From NCBI RefSeq assembly GCF_900172225.1, contig NZ_FWFO01000001.1, positions 1,426,001 through 1,490,000 of the forward strand: a DNA stretch of 64,000 nt, in the 5' to 3' direction. The notes under the pieces are model-generated. The model worked only from the letters and a program-made list of their open reading frames with translations. It made no database searches and was not told the origin of the DNA. Positions 69 through 13,973 of the stretch are shown piece after piece (position 1 is the first letter of the stretch; each line of letters starts with the position of its first letter). The DNA comes from Falsiruegeria litorea R37. GTDB taxonomy: Bacteria > Pseudomonadota > Alphaproteobacteria > Rhodobacterales > Rhodobacteraceae. The translations under genes and the position numbers were made by a program.

Positions 69-707
69 TTAAGGCGCCCAATTCAAGAAGTTGGCGATCA
101 GGCGCAGGCCCGTGGCCTGGCTTTTCTCTGGGTGGAACTGCATGCCCACCATCGTGTCACGGCCAATTACGGCGGTCACGTCGCCCGCGTAATCCACATG
201 CGCCAGCCGTTCTGCCGGGTTGGCAACACGGAAGTGGTAAGAGTGGACGAAATAGGTGTGATCGCCGGTCTCAATGCCGTCAAACACCGGGTGGGGGTGA
301 TCGATGACCAGATCATTCCACCCCATGTGCGGTACTTTCAGCGATGCATCCGCTGGTGTGATCTTGACCACATCGCCCCCGATCCAGCCCAGCCCGTCGG
401 TCTCGCGGTACTCATGCCCCTTGGTGGCCATCAGTTGCATGCCCACGCAGATGCCCAGGAACGGGCGACCTTTTACTTCGACGGCCTCGACCATCGCGTC
501 ATAGATGCCCTTGTGCCCGCGCAACTCGGACGCACAGGCAGGAAAGGCACCATCGCCGGGCAACACCAGCCGGTCGGCGCGCGCCACGATATCGGTGTCC
601 GAAGTCACAACAACTTCACCCGCATCCGTCTCGCGGGCCATGCGCTGAAACGCCTTTTCTGCCGAATGCAGATTGCCCGATTCGTAGTCGATGATCGCGG
701 TCAGCAT
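69..707 (-). CDS. hisH: Imidazole glycerol phosphate synthase glutamine amidotransferase subunit HisH
   Basis: This is the glutaminase half of the HisH-HisF enzyme. It releases ammonia from glutamine, and HisF uses it to make imidazole glycerol phosphate and AICAR in histidine synthesis. The protein has 212 residues, the normal size for the family. The nucleophile Cys87 lies in GICVGMQ, and the catalytic His192 and Glu194 lie in the MQFHPEKS motif. I chose the ATG at 707 because the family begins with M-x-x-I-I-D-Y; an upstream in-frame start would add 20 unrelated residues. It lies 88 bp downstream of hisB on the same strand, so the two are probably one operon that continues past the left edge, where hisA and hisF would be expected. 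Identification is secure. Confidence 0.97.
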   Translation of the reverse strand: MLTAIIDYESGNLHSAEKAFQRMARETDAGEVVVTSDTDIVARADRLVLPGDGAFPACASELRGHKGIYDAMVEAVEVKGRPFLGICVGMQLMATKGHEYRETDGLGWIGGDVVKITPADASLKVPHMGWNDLVIDHPHPVFDGIETGDHTYFVHSYHFRVANPAERLAHVDYAGDVTAVIGRDTMVGMQFHPEKSQATGLRLIANFLNWAP

Positions 708-2996: not shown

Positions 2997-3071
2997 TGGA
3001 GCGGGCGAGGCGATTCGAACGCCCGACCCTAACCTTGGCAAGGTTATGCTCTACCCCTGAGCTACGCCCGC
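2997..3071 (-). tRNA. tRNA-Gly (anticodon GCC), copy 3 (first transcribed)
   Basis: Identical in sequence to the other two copies, with encoded CCA (complement at 2997-2999). It is the promoter-proximal gene of the cluster. Its 5' end is about 11 nt downstream of the transcription start predicted from the promoter at 3089-3117. Confidence 0.97.
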
Positions 3072-10196: not shown

Positions 10197-12617
10197 ATGA
10201 GCAGTTTCGACGAAATGGACGCCTTTGAAGGCGCCGCACAGCAGCCTTCTTTGTCCGCGCGCGCCATGGCCGCGCGGCCGATGCCGTATCTGGACGACCT
10301 CAACCCCGCACAGCGCGAAGCGGTCGAGATGCTGGATGGGCCGGTGCTGATGCTGGCCGGGGCCGGTACGGGCAAGACCAAGGCGCTGACCACGCGCATT
10401 GTGCATCTGCTCAACACCCACAAAGCGCGCCCGAATGAGATCTTGGCCGTGACTTTCACCAACAAGGCCGCGCGCGAGATGAAGAACCGCGTGGGCCGTA
10501 TGCTGGGGCAACCGGCCGAAGGGATGCCTTGGCTGGGCACGTTTCATTCGATCTGCGTCAAGCTGCTGCGCCGCCATGCCGAGCTTGCGGGGCTAAAGTC
10601 GAACTTCACGATTCTGGACACCGACGATCAGCTGCGCCTGATCAAGCAGTTGGTGCAGGCTGCGGGGATTGACGACAAACGTTGGCCCGCGCGGCTGCTG
10701 TTGAATGTGATCGACGGGTGGAAGAACCGCGCGCTGACCCCGGGCAAGGTGCCCGCCGCTGATGCGGGGGCCTACAATAACAAGGGCGTGGAATTATACG
10801 CGCAATACCAAACCCGCCTGAAGGAGCTCAATGCGGTCGATTTCGGCGATCTACTGCTGCATGTCGTCACAATCTTTCAGGCGCATCCGGATGTGCTCGA
10901 GCAGTACCAGCGCTGGTTCCGCTACATCATGGTGGACGAATATCAGGATACCAACGTGGCCCAGTATCTGTGGCTGCGGCTGCTGGCGGGCGTGCACAAG
11001 AACATCTGCTGCGTTGGCGATGATGACCAGTCGATCTATGGCTGGCGCGGGGCCGAGGTGGGCAACATTCTGCGCTTTGAAAAGGACTTCCCGGGCGCCC
11101 ATGTGGTGCGGCTGGAACAGAACTATCGTTCGACCCCGCATATCCTGGCCGCTGCCTCGAATGTGATCCGGGGCAATGCCGATCGTTTGGGCAAGGAATT
11201 GTGGACCAATGCGGAAGAGGGCGAAAAAGTTCGCCTGATCGGCCACTGGGATGGCGAGGAGGAAGCTCGCTGGATCGGCGAAGAGATTGACGCCGTGCAG
11301 GGCGGCACTCGGGGCATGCGTCCCTTCAGCCTGGATGACATTGCGATTCTCGTGCGTGCCTCGCACCAGATGCGGGCGTTCGAAGATCGGTTTCTGACCA
11401 TTGGTCTGCCGTACAAGGTCATCGGTGGCCCGCGCTTTTATGAGCGGTTGGAGATTCGCGATGCCATGGCGTACTTCCGGCTTGTGACCAGCCCCGAGGA
11501 CGATCTGGCGTTCGAGCGCATCGTCAACACGCCCAAGCGCGGCCTTGGCGACAAGGCGCAGCAAACCATCCAGATCGCGGCGCGCTCAAGCGGTGTGTCC
11601 TTGGTCGAAGGGGCGCGAATCGCGCTGGATCAAGGGTTGATCAAGGGCAAGGGCGCCGGCGCGTTGCGCAAATTGGTCGAAGATCTGGCCCGTTGGCGCG
11701 CCATGACGCGCGGACCTGTGGTCGAGGCCAACGACGATGAGGTGATCGACGACGGGGGCGAGCCGCAGTTGGCGTTTGGCCAGCCCGAAGTCAGCCACAT
11801 CGAGCTGGCCCAGATCATTCTGGACGAATCCGGCTACACCACCATGTGGCAGAACACCAAAACGCCCGAAGCACCGGGGCGGCTGGAAAACCTCAAGGAA
11901 TTGGTGAACCAGTTGGACAACTTCGAGAATCTGCAAGGGTTCCTGGAACATGTCAGCCTGGTAATGGACAACGAACAGGAATCGGACGGCGCCAAAGTGT
12001 CGATCATGACCTTGCACGCGGCCAAGGGACTGGAATTCCCCGCCGTCTTTCTGCCTGGGTGGGAGGATGGCCTGTTCCCCTCGCAACGCTCGATGGACGA
12101 ATCCGGTCTCAAGGGCCTGGAAGAGGAGCGCCGCCTGGCCTACGTGGGTATCACCCGCGCCGAAGAGCTGTGCACCATATCCTTTGCGGCCAACCGGCGG
12201 GTGTTCGGGCAGTGGCAGAATTCCATGCCGTCGCGATTTGTCGATGAACTGCCCGAAAATCACGTCGATGTCCTGACGCCATCCGGTCTATACGGTGGTG
12301 GCGCGGGCGGTGTCAGCTCGCAGGGGATCGAAACCCGAGCGGCCGAGGCGAATGTCTATAACTCTCCCGGCTGGAAGCGCCTTCAGGCCCGTCAGGGGCA
12401 ACGCGGCTTGTCTCAGCCCAAGGAAAGCCGTAACACGGTGATTGATCTGAACGCCGTGTCCAGCTTCACGCTTGGCGAGCGCGTGTTTCATCAGAAGTTT
12501 GGCTATGGGGCGGTGATCGGGATCGAAGGCGACAAGCTTGAGATCGAGTTTGAAAAGGCGGGCACAAAAAAGGTCGTGGCCAAGTTCCTGTCCGCCAGCG
12601 ACGACGTGCCGTTCTAA
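10197..12617 (+). CDS. uvrD: ATP-dependent DNA helicase UvrD/PcrA
   Basis: A superfamily 1A 3'-5' helicase of 806 residues used in nucleotide excision and mismatch repair. Motifs run in order: Q motif LNPAQREAV (36-44), Walker A AGAGTGKT (54-61), Walker B VDEYQDTN (about 245), GDDDQSIYGWRGAE, QNYRST, and TLHAAKGLEF in the C-terminal half. The last 50 residues (SFTLGERVFHQKFGYGAVIGIEG onward, cited in part) look like the Tudor-like PcrA/UvrD tail that contacts RNA polymerase. An N-terminal extension of about 30 residues is less conserved. Its stop codon overlaps that of the convergent DUF1330 gene by four bases. Confidence 0.97.
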   Translation: MSSFDEMDAFEGAAQQPSLSARAMAARPMPYLDDLNPAQREAVEMLDGPVLMLAGAGTGKTKALTTRIVHLLNTHKARPNEILAVTFTNKAAREMKNRVGRMLGQPAEGMPWLGTFHSICVKLLRRHAELAGLKSNFTILDTDDQLRLIKQLVQAAGIDDKRWPARLLLNVIDGWKNRALTPGKVPAADAGAYNNKGVELYAQYQTRLKELNAVDFGDLLLHVVTIFQAHPDVLEQYQRWFRYIMVDEYQDTNVAQYLWLRLLAGVHKNICCVGDDDQSIYGWRGAEVGNILRFEKDFPGAHVVRLEQNYRSTPHILAAASNVIRGNADRLGKELWTNAEEGEKVRLIGHWDGEEEARWIGEEIDAVQGGTRGMRPFSLDDIAILVRASHQMRAFEDRFLTIGLPYKVIGGPRFYERLEIRDAMAYFRLVTSPEDDLAFERIVNTPKRGLGDKAQQTIQIAARSSGVSLVEGARIALDQGLIKGKGAGALRKLVEDLARWRAMTRGPVVEANDDEVIDDGGEPQLAFGQPEVSHIELAQIILDESGYTTMWQNTKTPEAPGRLENLKELVNQLDNFENLQGFLEHVSLVMDNEQESDGAKVSIMTLHAAKGLEFPAVFLPGWEDGLFPSQRSMDESGLKGLEEERRLAYVGITRAEELCTISFAANRRVFGQWQNSMPSRFVDELPENHVDVLTPSGLYGGGAGGVSSQGIETRAAEANVYNSPGWKRLQARQGQRGLSQPKESRNTVIDLNAVSSFTLGERVFHQKFGYGAVIGIEGDKLEIEFEKAGTKKVVAKFLSASDDVPF

Positions 12618-12904
12618 AGCCCATCCACGATGATCGCGTTGGTTGAAACCGTTGCGTGCCGAATGCGCGCAAGCTCGACATATTCGGGGTCGTCCTTCCA
12701 CGCATAGGCGGTTTCTAGGTCTGGAAACTCCATCAACACCACACCGCCCTCGGGCCATTCCCCTTCGACACAGTCGACGGTTTTGGATGAGACCGTGAGC
12801 AGGCGCCCCTGGTGTCGCTCAAAGATCGGCATGAACCCCTTTAAGTACTCCTGGTACCCTTCGGGGTCGTGGATGTTCAGCTGTGCGAAGAAATAGGCGG
12901 GCAT
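12614..12904 (-). CDS. DUF1330 domain protein
   Basis: A 96-residue protein that is a single DUF1330 domain, a dimeric alpha/beta-barrel (ferredoxin-like) fold. It has the typical opening PAYFFAQLNIHDPEGYQEYL, the central VLMEFPDLETAYAW and the closing YVELARIRHATVSTNAIIVDG (quoted in part). Function is unknown for the family. The ATG at 12904 is preferred because the domain starts immediately. It lies 47 bp downstream of the RNA terminator of the hairpin array on the same strand and overlaps the uvrD stop tail-to-tail. Confidence 0.85.
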   Translation of the reverse strand: MPAYFFAQLNIHDPEGYQEYLKGFMPIFERHQGRLLTVSSKTVDCVEGEWPEGGVVLMEFPDLETAYAWKDDPEYVELARIRHATVSTNAIIVDGL

Positions 12905-12950
12905 CTTGAACTCCCTGGCTATTGATGCCGCCAGTCTACCACTCTTGCTC

Positions 12951-13038
12951 AAAAACAAAAAACGGCGGTTCCCAGGGAGGAGGAGGGGAACCGCCGTTCA
13001 TGACAACATCGAGACAGGGAGGAGGAGAGCCCCGATGT
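12951..13038 (-). ncRNA. CcsR/cuckoo-like anti-SD RNA unit 4, ending in an intrinsic terminator
   Basis: Last unit of the array. Hairpin one (13038-13006) pairs ACATCGGGGC with GTCTCGATGT through two G-U pairs. Hairpin two (12998-12961) has a perfect 13-bp stem AACGGCGGTTCCC/GGGAACCGCCGTT. Both loops show CCUCCUCCC (motif complements 13017-13025 and 12975-12983). Hairpin two is followed by TTTTGTTTTT (12960-12951), so it serves as the terminator of the whole transcript. Family and function are inferred from the CcsR RNAs of Rhodobacter sphaeroides. Confidence 0.82.
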
Positions 13039-13071
13039 ATTCGAACCCGGGTTTGAGCCCGGTATGAGGTC

Positions 13072-13150
13072 GCGGCGGCTTCAGGGAGGAGGAGGAAGCC
13101 GCCGCTCGCTTTCAACATCCAGGGTCAGGGAGGAGGAGAGACCCGGATGT
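13072..13150 (-). ncRNA. CcsR/cuckoo-like anti-SD RNA unit 3
   Basis: Two hairpins. The first (13150-13115) pairs ACATCCGGGTC with GACCC-GGATGT, and the second (13105-13072) has a perfect 11-bp stem GCGGCGGCTTC/GAAGCCGCCGC. Each loop carries CCUCCUCCC (complements 13128-13136 and 13084-13092), the reverse complement of a strong Shine-Dalgarno sequence. A spacer with its own small inverted repeat separates it from unit 4. Confidence 0.82.
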
Positions 13151-13184
13151 ATCCGCGTTCCGGCGTCCAAGGCCGGTATGAGGT

Positions 13185-13264
13185 CGCGGCGACTTCAGGG
13201 AGGAGGAGGAAGCCACCGCGCGCTTTCAACATCCAAGGTCAGGGAGGAGGAGAGACCCGGATGT
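13185..13264 (-). ncRNA. CcsR/cuckoo-like anti-SD RNA unit 2
   Basis: Same plan as unit 3: hairpin one 13264-13229, hairpin two 13220-13185, with loops exposing CCUCCUCCC (complements 13242-13250 and 13198-13206). Relative to unit 3, three stem bases have changed and each change leaves a G-U pair in minus-strand RNA but an A-C mismatch in plus-strand RNA. This shows which strand is transcribed. Confidence 0.82.
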
Positions 13265-13298
13265 ATCTGCGTTCCGGCGTTCAAGGCCGGTATTTGGT

Positions 13299-13369
13299 GC
13301 GGCGACATCAGGGAGGAGGAGGAGGCCGCCGCTTAACTCAGACCCCAGGGAGGAGGAGAGGAGCCTGAA
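13299..13369 (-). ncRNA. CcsR/cuckoo-like anti-SD RNA unit 1 (promoter-proximal)
   Basis: Begins 18 nt after the stop of the DUF1127 gene. Hairpin one (13369-13337) has a 10-bp stem TTCAGGCTCC with GGGGTCTGAG, three of its pairs being G-U. Hairpin two (13332-13299) is a GCGGCGG-type stem. Both loops contain CCUCCUCCC (complements 13348-13356 and 13311-13319). Presumably cotranscribed with the protein gene and cut out by RNase processing. Confidence 0.8.
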
Positions 13370-13387
13370 TTCAGTATCTTGTTCCGC

Positions 13388-13612
13388 TTAACGTGCGGTG
13401 TATTCGGCCGAAGCCTGCTGCGCCACGCGCTTGATCATCGAACGGTGCAGGCCCAGATCGGCCAGCTCACGCGCCGACAGGGCGCTCAGCTCATTTACGG
13501 TCTGACGATACATCCGGTTGCGGATGTAGCGGGTTTTTGCGGCCTCGATCAGCGAGGAGAAGCCGGAGAATGTTGCGCCTTTTGCGGCGGTGTAGTCGCT
13601 GGTGACAGCCAT
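13388..13612 (-). CDS. DUF1127 protein, CcaF1-like RNA-binding protein
   Basis: A 74-residue protein with a C-terminal DUF1127 domain, seen in NELSALSARELADLGLHRSM (about residues 42-61). Basic residues just before it (KTRYIRNRMYRQ) suit RNA contact. In Rhodobacter sphaeroides a DUF1127 protein named CcaF1 is cotranscribed with the four CcsR RNAs, binds RNA and helps their maturation. Here the same arrangement occurs: four CCUCCUCCC hairpin units start 18 nt after the stop. I therefore infer the same role. In that organism the promoter depends on heat-shock sigma factors; I could not pick out a clear promoter upstream (13613-13790). A dyad TGCTGC-N3-GCAGCA lies at 13716-13730. Confidence 0.88.
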   Translation of the reverse strand: MAVTSDYTAAKGATFSGFSSLIEAAKTRYIRNRMYRQTVNELSALSARELADLGLHRSMIKRVAQQASAEYTAR

Positions 13613-13973
13613 GATCTTTACCTATCGTCGTATCGTCTCTGCCGCGTCGGTGCGGCGTTTGCTTGAGACTGAAAATAGGCAAATGCTGCGCCTGCACAAT
13701 AGCTTGCAGTATCAATGCTGCTATGCAGCAATTGCATAGATTATCCCCTGAAATCACGGCGTTTGCGAATAGCGCATATTTTATTGGGCTTTGAGTGTGC
13801 CTGATACGTTCTCTTTCAACGGTATTTATTTGTCACTTATGATCGAGCGCCCTTTTTTTACGCCACGTGATGCAAGTTGCGCCCTTGAAAAAACGCACCG
13901 GGGGGTCTGGGCGCCCCGAGTCGACCGCAGCGGGGCTGCTTTCGCGTGCGCAGATGCAAGCACGTGCGCGCAA

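Follow-up and report, generated by a model that had tools for sequence, protein, structure and literature searches.

The window analysed here is a stretch of 64,000 nucleotides, which carries on its minus strand a gene for a ccaF1-like DUF1127 protein of 74 amino acids (13388-13612; PF06568, 51.4 bits at a cut-off of 23.3, E 9.1e-14). Downstream of this gene, one of six DUF1127 matches in the genome, the preliminary description of this DNA had placed eight minus-strand hairpins (12961-13371), and all of them are confirmed: according to the predicted fold, CCUCCUCCC is unpaired in every one of the eight loops, which comprise 12-13 nt and are closed by stems of 10-16 pairs. The hairpins are arranged as four two-hairpin units, the final hairpin doubling as the terminator, and the first motif lies 34 nt from the end of the DUF1127 open reading frame as measured by the script.

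The previously claimed alternation of two stem types holds as well, the odd hairpins (type A) having stems of mixed sequence and the even ones (type B) stems close to GCGGCGGC. In unit 1, hairpin 1 (A, 13335-13371, 12 pairs, loop TCTCCTCCTCCCT) is followed by hairpin 2 (B, 13299-13332, 10 pairs, loop CTCCTCCTCCCT); unit 2 comprises hairpins 3 (A, 13229-13264, 11 pairs) and 4 (B, 13185-13220, 12 pairs), unit 3, hairpins 5 (A, 13115-13150, 11 pairs) and 6 (B, 13072-13105, 11 pairs), and unit 4, hairpins 7 (A, 12996-13046, 16 pairs) and 8 (B, 12951-12998), all on the minus strand. Together with a T-tract, hairpin 8 forms an intrinsic terminator with the motif in its loop: its stem is a 13-bp perfect inverted repeat (12961-12973/12986-12998) followed by TTTTGTTTTT on the minus strand, and it was missed by a simple terminator scan, the loop limit of which was 8 nt. 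The units are separated by three short GC linker hairpins lacking the motif, which are absent from the preliminary description and lie, on the minus strand of the predicted fold, at 13274-13290 (units 1/2, CCGGC-loop-GCCGG), 13160-13176 (units 2/3), and 13047-13062 (units 3/4). Units 2 and 3 fall within a 114-nt direct tandem repeat with 94% identity, a sign of tandem duplication.

The array stands out in the genome both by sequence and by structure. The 13-mer CTCCTCCTCCCTG has eight exact copies on the minus strand of the window (12973-13358), and the search of the whole genome (4,687,986 bases) yields no forward and eight reverse matches, all in the array, and none for the reversed-pattern control. 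The shorter 9-mer CCTCCTCCC occurs 65 times genome-wide (27+38) vs. 22 times for the reversed pattern, and its dense clusters are confined to the array among the matches listed. The minus strand of 12951-13385 has a folding energy of -192.9 kcal/mol (z = -8.9), and none of 100 dinucleotide shuffles reaches an energy as low.

Two further observations concern the surroundings. A DUF1330 gene (12614-12913, minus strand) lies immediately 3' of the array terminator on the same strand, and elsewhere in the window three tandem tRNA genes (2767-2838, 2884-2955, and 3000-3071, minus strand) have identical Rfam scores and sequence.

Known relatives and distribution of the array

The lack of any covariance-model hit, which the preliminary description named as evidence against its reading, is not observed: the CcsR1 model (RF02791) matches all four units (E 2.5e-6, 4.3e-6, 9.6e-6, and 0.0024), although every score (24.8-34.9 bits) is below the gathering cut-off of 65.3 bits. 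No other CcsR1 match at E<=0.01 is present in this genome. Across 61 genomes, CcsR1 matches were found in 32 and the gathering score was reached in two, and one of 14 control genomes (Thermus composti) yielded a match below the cut-off. The ar14 model (RF02344) scores 54.2 bits over 12957-13112, with a second match at 37.9 bits, both below the curated 58.8.

The DUF1127 gene, the tandem two-hairpin units with CCUCCUCCC, the terminator, and the CcsR1 matches to four units bear out the proposed ccaF1-CcsR1-4 type of architecture. The locus almost certainly belongs to the known ccaF1-CcsR kind ("cuckoo RNA," CIN1), the cuckoo RNA family having reportedly been defined by Reinkensmeier and Giegerich in 2015, and its identity together with its mode of action as a ccaF1-CcsR operon is highly probable. 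The closest counterpart is ccaF1-CcsR1-4 (RSs0680a-d) of Rhodobacter sphaeroides, likewise with a DUF1127 gene, four two-hairpin CCUCCUCCC RNAs, an end terminator, and, probably, a heat-shock-type promoter (background in passages of PMC8625941 and PMC8307010); unlike in R. sphaeroides CcsR1, the stems have diverged here, hence the low Rfam scores. A short DUF1127 gene associated with CcsR-like RNAs is also described for the alphaproteobacterial cuckoo RNA family, or CIN1, as cited in a passage of PMC10253847. Hairpin loops with the identical CCUCCUCCC also occur in ar14/NfeR1/SmelA075 (RF02344; passages of PMC10746234 and PMC3927594, the latter reporting rhizobial CCUCCUCCC loops on variable stems in 2011), but in these passages that RNA is a rhizobial three-hairpin one, described without a DUF1127 gene.

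A scan of the named genomes for three spaced CCTCCTCCC produced at least 118 stretches. Fifteen of them, non-alphaproteobacterial by title, were set aside, and 15 of the remaining 103 were dropped for having less than 600 nt of upstream sequence, leaving 88. As loci L001-L176 partly duplicate genomes, counts are given for the named set, which limits the duplication and does not include R. sphaeroides; hairpins of relatives were counted by exact CCTCCTCCC only. Among the matches listed, 82 of the 88 alphaproteobacterial arrays are preceded, at a distance of up to 400 nt and on the same strand, by a DUF1127 gene; none of the 13 non-alphaproteobacterial stretches with sufficient room has such a gene. 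At the level of genomes, the array pattern is present in 99 of the 198 members of the family. One locus (L064) appears to be a chance match due to low complexity; in two Rhizobium loci (L108, L130), the profile search detected no DUF1127 gene upstream of the array.

A fixed copy number of four units, presented in the preliminary description as a conserved feature, is not supported: the window does have four, but exact motifs in the family range from 3 to 26. Loci of the same genus have eight (L026, L169) or seven (L028) exact motifs, and the alphaproteobacterial DUF1127 loci among the matches listed have 3-16, the number being even in 64 out of 82. Nine of these 82 arrays end less than 200 nt from the end of the available sequence and may be cut; the remaining 73 cover the same range, 12 of them having exactly eight motifs. 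The largest array, with 26 exact motifs, is that of L150 (G191:C1:334949-336119), which has apparently expanded through repetition of a roughly 140-nt unit. The claim of conserved gene order holds in part: an adjoining divergent mraZ gene, seen in the window too, is common but not universal, being found upstream of 36 out of 51 DUF1127 loci for which 4 kb or more of upstream sequence was available (among the matches listed).

The hairpins show selection at the RNA level. Arm swaps were calculated for 92 loci, namely, the window, L026, L028, and those 89 named loci in which DUF1127 is no more than 400 nt away, with 690 hairpins in total. The mean pairing energy is -22.0 kcal/mol for a hairpin's own arms vs. 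-11.4 kcal/mol for arms taken from other loci, even though the first ten bases of the 690 5' arms comprise 584 distinct sequences; thus, the loop stays constant while the stems covary. Among the hairpins of the window, number 8 and the four of type A beat approximately 99% of 200 sampled swaps, and B-type stems 2, 4, and 6, which share a common sequence, are less distinctive, the proportions of swaps at or below their own energy being 0.29, 0.025, and 0.03, respectively. Chance or a low-complexity repeat is ruled out by the genome-unique motif cluster, the fold z-score of -8.9, and the comparison of own and swapped arms; CRISPR-like and coding repeats were set aside as well, the stems and loops acting like RNA hairpins.

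Conserved promoter block

While arrays of this kind are already known, the new and most informative part of the locus, absent from the preliminary description, is the conserved promoter/operator block. A region of about 60 nt upstream of the operon, containing CTGCATAGCAG, is conserved across Rhodobacterales; the alignment of 13 upstream regions reads yATGCAnTTGCTGCATRGCRGCATTG, approximately ten variable bases, ATTGTGCANNYGCAGCAT, and a CCATnTT/CTATnTT box. In the window, three elements can be distinguished on the minus strand: the candidate PhaR-type operator CTGCATAGCAG (CTGC-N3-GCAG; 13718-13728), identified by motif and alignment within the conserved stretch 13713-13737; the proposed -35 element TTGTGCAGGCGCAGCA (13684-13699), recognized by the conservation of TTGTGC and GCAGCA, with another TGC-rich sequence, a second candidate site for PhaR, overlapping it; and the proposed -10 element TTGCCTATTTT (13672-13682), recognized by the pattern TTG-N18-20-[CT]ATNTT.

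These elements were counted in 85 upstream regions, namely, those of the window, L026, L028, and the named loci with a DUF1127 match and enough upstream DNA, all figures referring to the matches listed. The exact CTGC-N3-GCAG is present in 53 regions (shuffled mean 0.37, largest 2) and the looser CTGC-N3-GC[AG]G in 67, so that 32 regions are without the exact form and 18 without even the looser one. TTGTGC is found in 78 regions vs. 2.48 in shuffles, and TTG-N18-20-[CT]ATNTT, a loose pattern picked after viewing the alignment, in 52 vs. 0.47. The strict sigma-32 pattern CTTG-N16-19-CYATNT matches none of the 85 regions, and the sigma-70 scan gave a single weak site (13769-13740), which is at chance level. 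In 61 out of 66 regions (among the matches listed), CTGC and TTGTGC are 28-29 nt apart. When 74 of the 85 regions are aligned on TTGTGC, the columns of the GCAGCA that follows it are 92-100% conserved, exceeding the -10 box.

The operator and TTGTGC-N3-5-GCAG, 27-30 nt apart, occur together upstream of 61 out of 88 arrays among the matches listed and in none of 70 downstream controls of equal length, and the exact site precedes 41 out of 1056 other ATG-started open reading frames of at least 150 amino acids in the named loci (again among the matches listed). In 67 regions the site keeps a distance of 90-188 nt from the start codon downstream, as picked by the script, and in 49 loci the array and mraZ are about 1.5-5.5 kb apart; given the narrow range of the former distance and the wide range of the latter, the site belongs to the DUF1127-array operon.

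Several arrays lack the protein gene. In L042 (Yoonia litorea), L098 (Rhodovulum kholense), L147, and L019, only 76-98 nt separate TTGTGC from the first hairpin motif downstream, too little to accommodate a DUF1127 gene. In L148, TTGTGC and the array are 190 nt apart, with no DUF1127 match, this distance depending on which motif is counted as the first; in L086, a TTGTGC block lies 226 nt before the array, also with no DUF1127 match. CTGC-N3-GCAG is kept in three out of five DUF1127-less arrays (L042, L147, and L148). The occurrence of promoter and array without the protein gene points to the RNAs as the core product, and such species would allow the RNA function to be separated from that of the protein in natural strains.

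The same loci bear on another reading, in which the array acts in cis, stabilising the DUF1127 mRNA at its 3' end, rather than as a source of trans-acting RNAs. It would suit the position of the array close behind the DUF1127 stop codon (mostly 20-35 nt to the first motif), but not the presence of promoter and array without the gene in L042, L098, L019, and L147, nor the constant loop letters on variable stems; moreover, the R. sphaeroides CcsR RNAs are stated to target flhR mRNA in a passage of PMC8307010. We regard a cis-acting role as very improbable and treat the array below as a source of trans-acting RNAs.

Candidate PhaR operator and candidate targets of the RNAs

The operator of the window fits the binding sequence CTGCNNNGCAG given for R. 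sphaeroides PhaR in a passage of PMC12542648; the second TGC-rich site differs from it in spacing, N4 vs. N3. PhaR is encoded in the same genome (PF07879, 98.8 bits), which has a phaZ-phaC-phaP-phaR cluster (L269; Pfam PHB_depo_C, PhaC_N, Phasin_2, and PHB_acc_N, respectively). CTGCATAGCAG, an 11-mer identical to the ccaF1 site, lies between phaZ and phaC, two operator sites 30 nt apart precede the phasin gene phaP, and CTGCATTGCAG is located 47 nt upstream of a patatin-like gene. Two other perfect TTGTGCANNNGCAGCA sites exist in the genome, one of them between a divergent pair of genes encoding an HpcH/HpaI-family lyase and a DUF1611 protein. The looser TGCTGCNNNGCAG has 39 genome-wide matches vs. 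four for the reversed pattern, promoter and coding sites being pooled. Outside Rhodobacterales-type loci, YGCRNYGCR, the core of the Sinorhizobium meliloti PhaR motif, is found within 700 nt upstream of seven out of eight Rhizobiales-type loci, at an expectation of 0.18-0.35 per locus; these loci were chosen by title, and L058 (Maritalea), which has the Rhodobacterales block, was excluded.

On these grounds, we propose, with a probability of about 0.6, that PhaR, the sensor of stored polyhydroxybutyrate, controls the operon on top of a heat-shock-type promoter. The broader generalization is also rather probable, namely, that cuckoo RNAs are ancient members of the PhaR regulon across Alphaproteobacteria, PhaR gating a heat-shock-type promoter so that these translation-damping RNAs arise only if stress and stored carbon coincide, and the constant core being the promoter plus the array, not the DUF1127 gene. 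As far as sequence can tell, the promoter site suggests that the small RNAs may answer to stored carbon in addition to stress.

A precedent for PhaR at a small-RNA promoter is provided by mmgR of S. meliloti, repressed by PhaR/AniA via a dyad within the -35 and -10 elements, according to passages of PMC8401924 and PMC12542648. The geometry of that dyad resembles the one seen here; unlike the array, mmgR as described there is a 77-nt RNA of another family (ar8), with no anti-Shine-Dalgarno array described. The passages on R. sphaeroides ccaF1-CcsR make no mention of a PhaR operator, two reviews on PHA regulation do not mention CcsR, and no paper naming CcsR1 or ccaF1 together with PhaR was found in a search that lay outside the primary ccaF1, CcsR, and cuckoo papers, so that the link may already be in print. 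Among the matches listed, co-occurrences are those of DUF1127 and PhaR in a Rhodovulum genome comparison (PMC9230146) and of words beginning with "phar" and "ccsr" in PMC10371769.

The conserved block might instead be just an extended RpoHI/RpoHII promoter without PhaR, the TGC palindromes being needed by the sigma factor or a general activator. Indeed, the R. sphaeroides ccaF1-CcsR promoter is described as RpoHI/RpoHII in a passage of PMC10253847, and the 52 of 85 upstream regions with TTG-N18-20-[CT]ATNTT (among the matches listed) are compatible with such a promoter. However, CTGC-N3-GCAG, which equals the published PhaR site, is placed outside the proposed -35 element, on its upstream side, the identical 11-mer is placed between phaZ and phaC, and the palindrome is present without the Rhodobacterales promoter arrangement in seven out of eight Rhizobiales-type loci. 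A promoter-only explanation thus seems unlikely.

The six DUF1127 genes of the genome are informative with respect to the identity of the regulator, as it could be a different TGC-box protein linked to DUF1127 genes in general. One of the other genes (L182) has CTGCATAGCGG, one base off the operator, 227 nt before the matched domain, and two more (L178, L179) have upstream TTGTGC alone; hence, some of the block may be a feature of DUF1127 genes at large. But the exact site and the paired form are found within 400 nt upstream at the array-linked gene only, exact CTGC-N3-GCAG being absent from this interval before the matched domain in all five paralogues (0/5), and the site is kept by three DUF1127-less arrays and present at the phasin gene. 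A regulator of this sort is, in our opinion, quite improbable, and PhaR remains the preferred candidate.

Under PhaR control, the operon could work as follows. A single transcript from the promoter at about 13672-13737 (minus strand) would comprise the DUF1127 mRNA and, at its 3' end, the four-unit array down to the terminator hairpin, and would be cut by RNase E with the assistance of the DUF1127 protein, by analogy with R. sphaeroides. The anti-Shine-Dalgarno loops of the released RNAs would then pair with ribosome-binding sites and lower translation. The promoter is presumably of the heat-shock-sigma type, with two overlaid TGC-rich sites, the upstream one being an exact PhaR operator; PhaR would repress the operon and leave the DNA once polyhydroxybutyrate accumulates, so the RNAs would be produced under the joint condition of active stress sigma factors and stored carbon. 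The operator would help to account for the existence of RNAs said to tune C1 metabolism and pyruvate dehydrogenase, a source of acetyl-CoA, by tying them to the state of the acetyl-CoA storage polymer. Stress induction, RNA maturation, and the effects on C1 and pyruvate metabolism are carried over from passages of the R. sphaeroides papers.

Sites that the loops could recognize are few. GGGAGGAG is found 3-11 nt before ATG at 30 places in the genome, of which three are the array's own complement, nine belong to a dispersed repeat, four precede open reading frames of 8-142 amino acids, and 14 precede those of at least 178 amino acids. By Pfam, these 14 genes, which can be considered candidate targets only, encode TRAP components (one DctQ and two DctP), a periplasmic binding protein, a SoxA-type cytochrome, a flavocytochrome c sulphide dehydrogenase, molybdopterin and FAD subunits of dehydrogenases, an acyl-CoA dehydrogenase, an acetyl-CoA-synthetase-like enzyme, an enoyl-CoA hydratase, a zinc-type oxidoreductase, a sulphur transporter, and a YHYH protein.

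In 198 family genomes, we counted CAGGGAGGAG-N3-11-ATG (the loop complement) and CAGGAGGGAG-N3-11-ATG, which has the same composition and core. No array-linked enrichment of CAGGGAGGAG was observed: the counts are 323/78 where an array match is present (99 genomes), this sum including the arrays' own complement strand, vs. 148/38 in the 99 genomes without one, some of which may hide diverged arrays. As these ratios are alike, the idea that the array has shaped the ribosome-binding sites was rejected.

The same comparison is in line with an unselective binding of Shine-Dalgarno sequences, i.e., global damping of translation, since the loop is the core anti-Shine-Dalgarno and the CAGGGAGGAG extension is not favoured by the presence of an array. 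On the other hand, just 30 GGGAGGAG-N3-11-ATG sites exist in the genome, and the 14 candidate sites before long open reading frames belong mostly, by Pfam, to genes for the uptake of carbon or sulphur compounds and for enzymes that are CoA-linked or redox-active. We consider global damping unlikely.

The dispersed repeat is structured, has the core GGCCCAACGGGAGGAGGGCATCTTTGATGC, and is represented by L184, L188, L189, L191, L202, L203, L205, L208, and L210 (near locus position 1500). In seven out of its nine copies in this genome, a 9-nt segment is perfectly complementary to the CcsR loop; by the exact pattern, three genomes of the same genus have 1, 10, and 9 copies, and 57 others, none. The repeat has no Rfam match; it may represent a mobile element or serve to sponge up the CcsR RNAs. 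One of these loci, L191, also contains a SAM/SAH riboswitch aptamer (positions 159-208, plus strand; 58.2 bits at a cut-off of 40).
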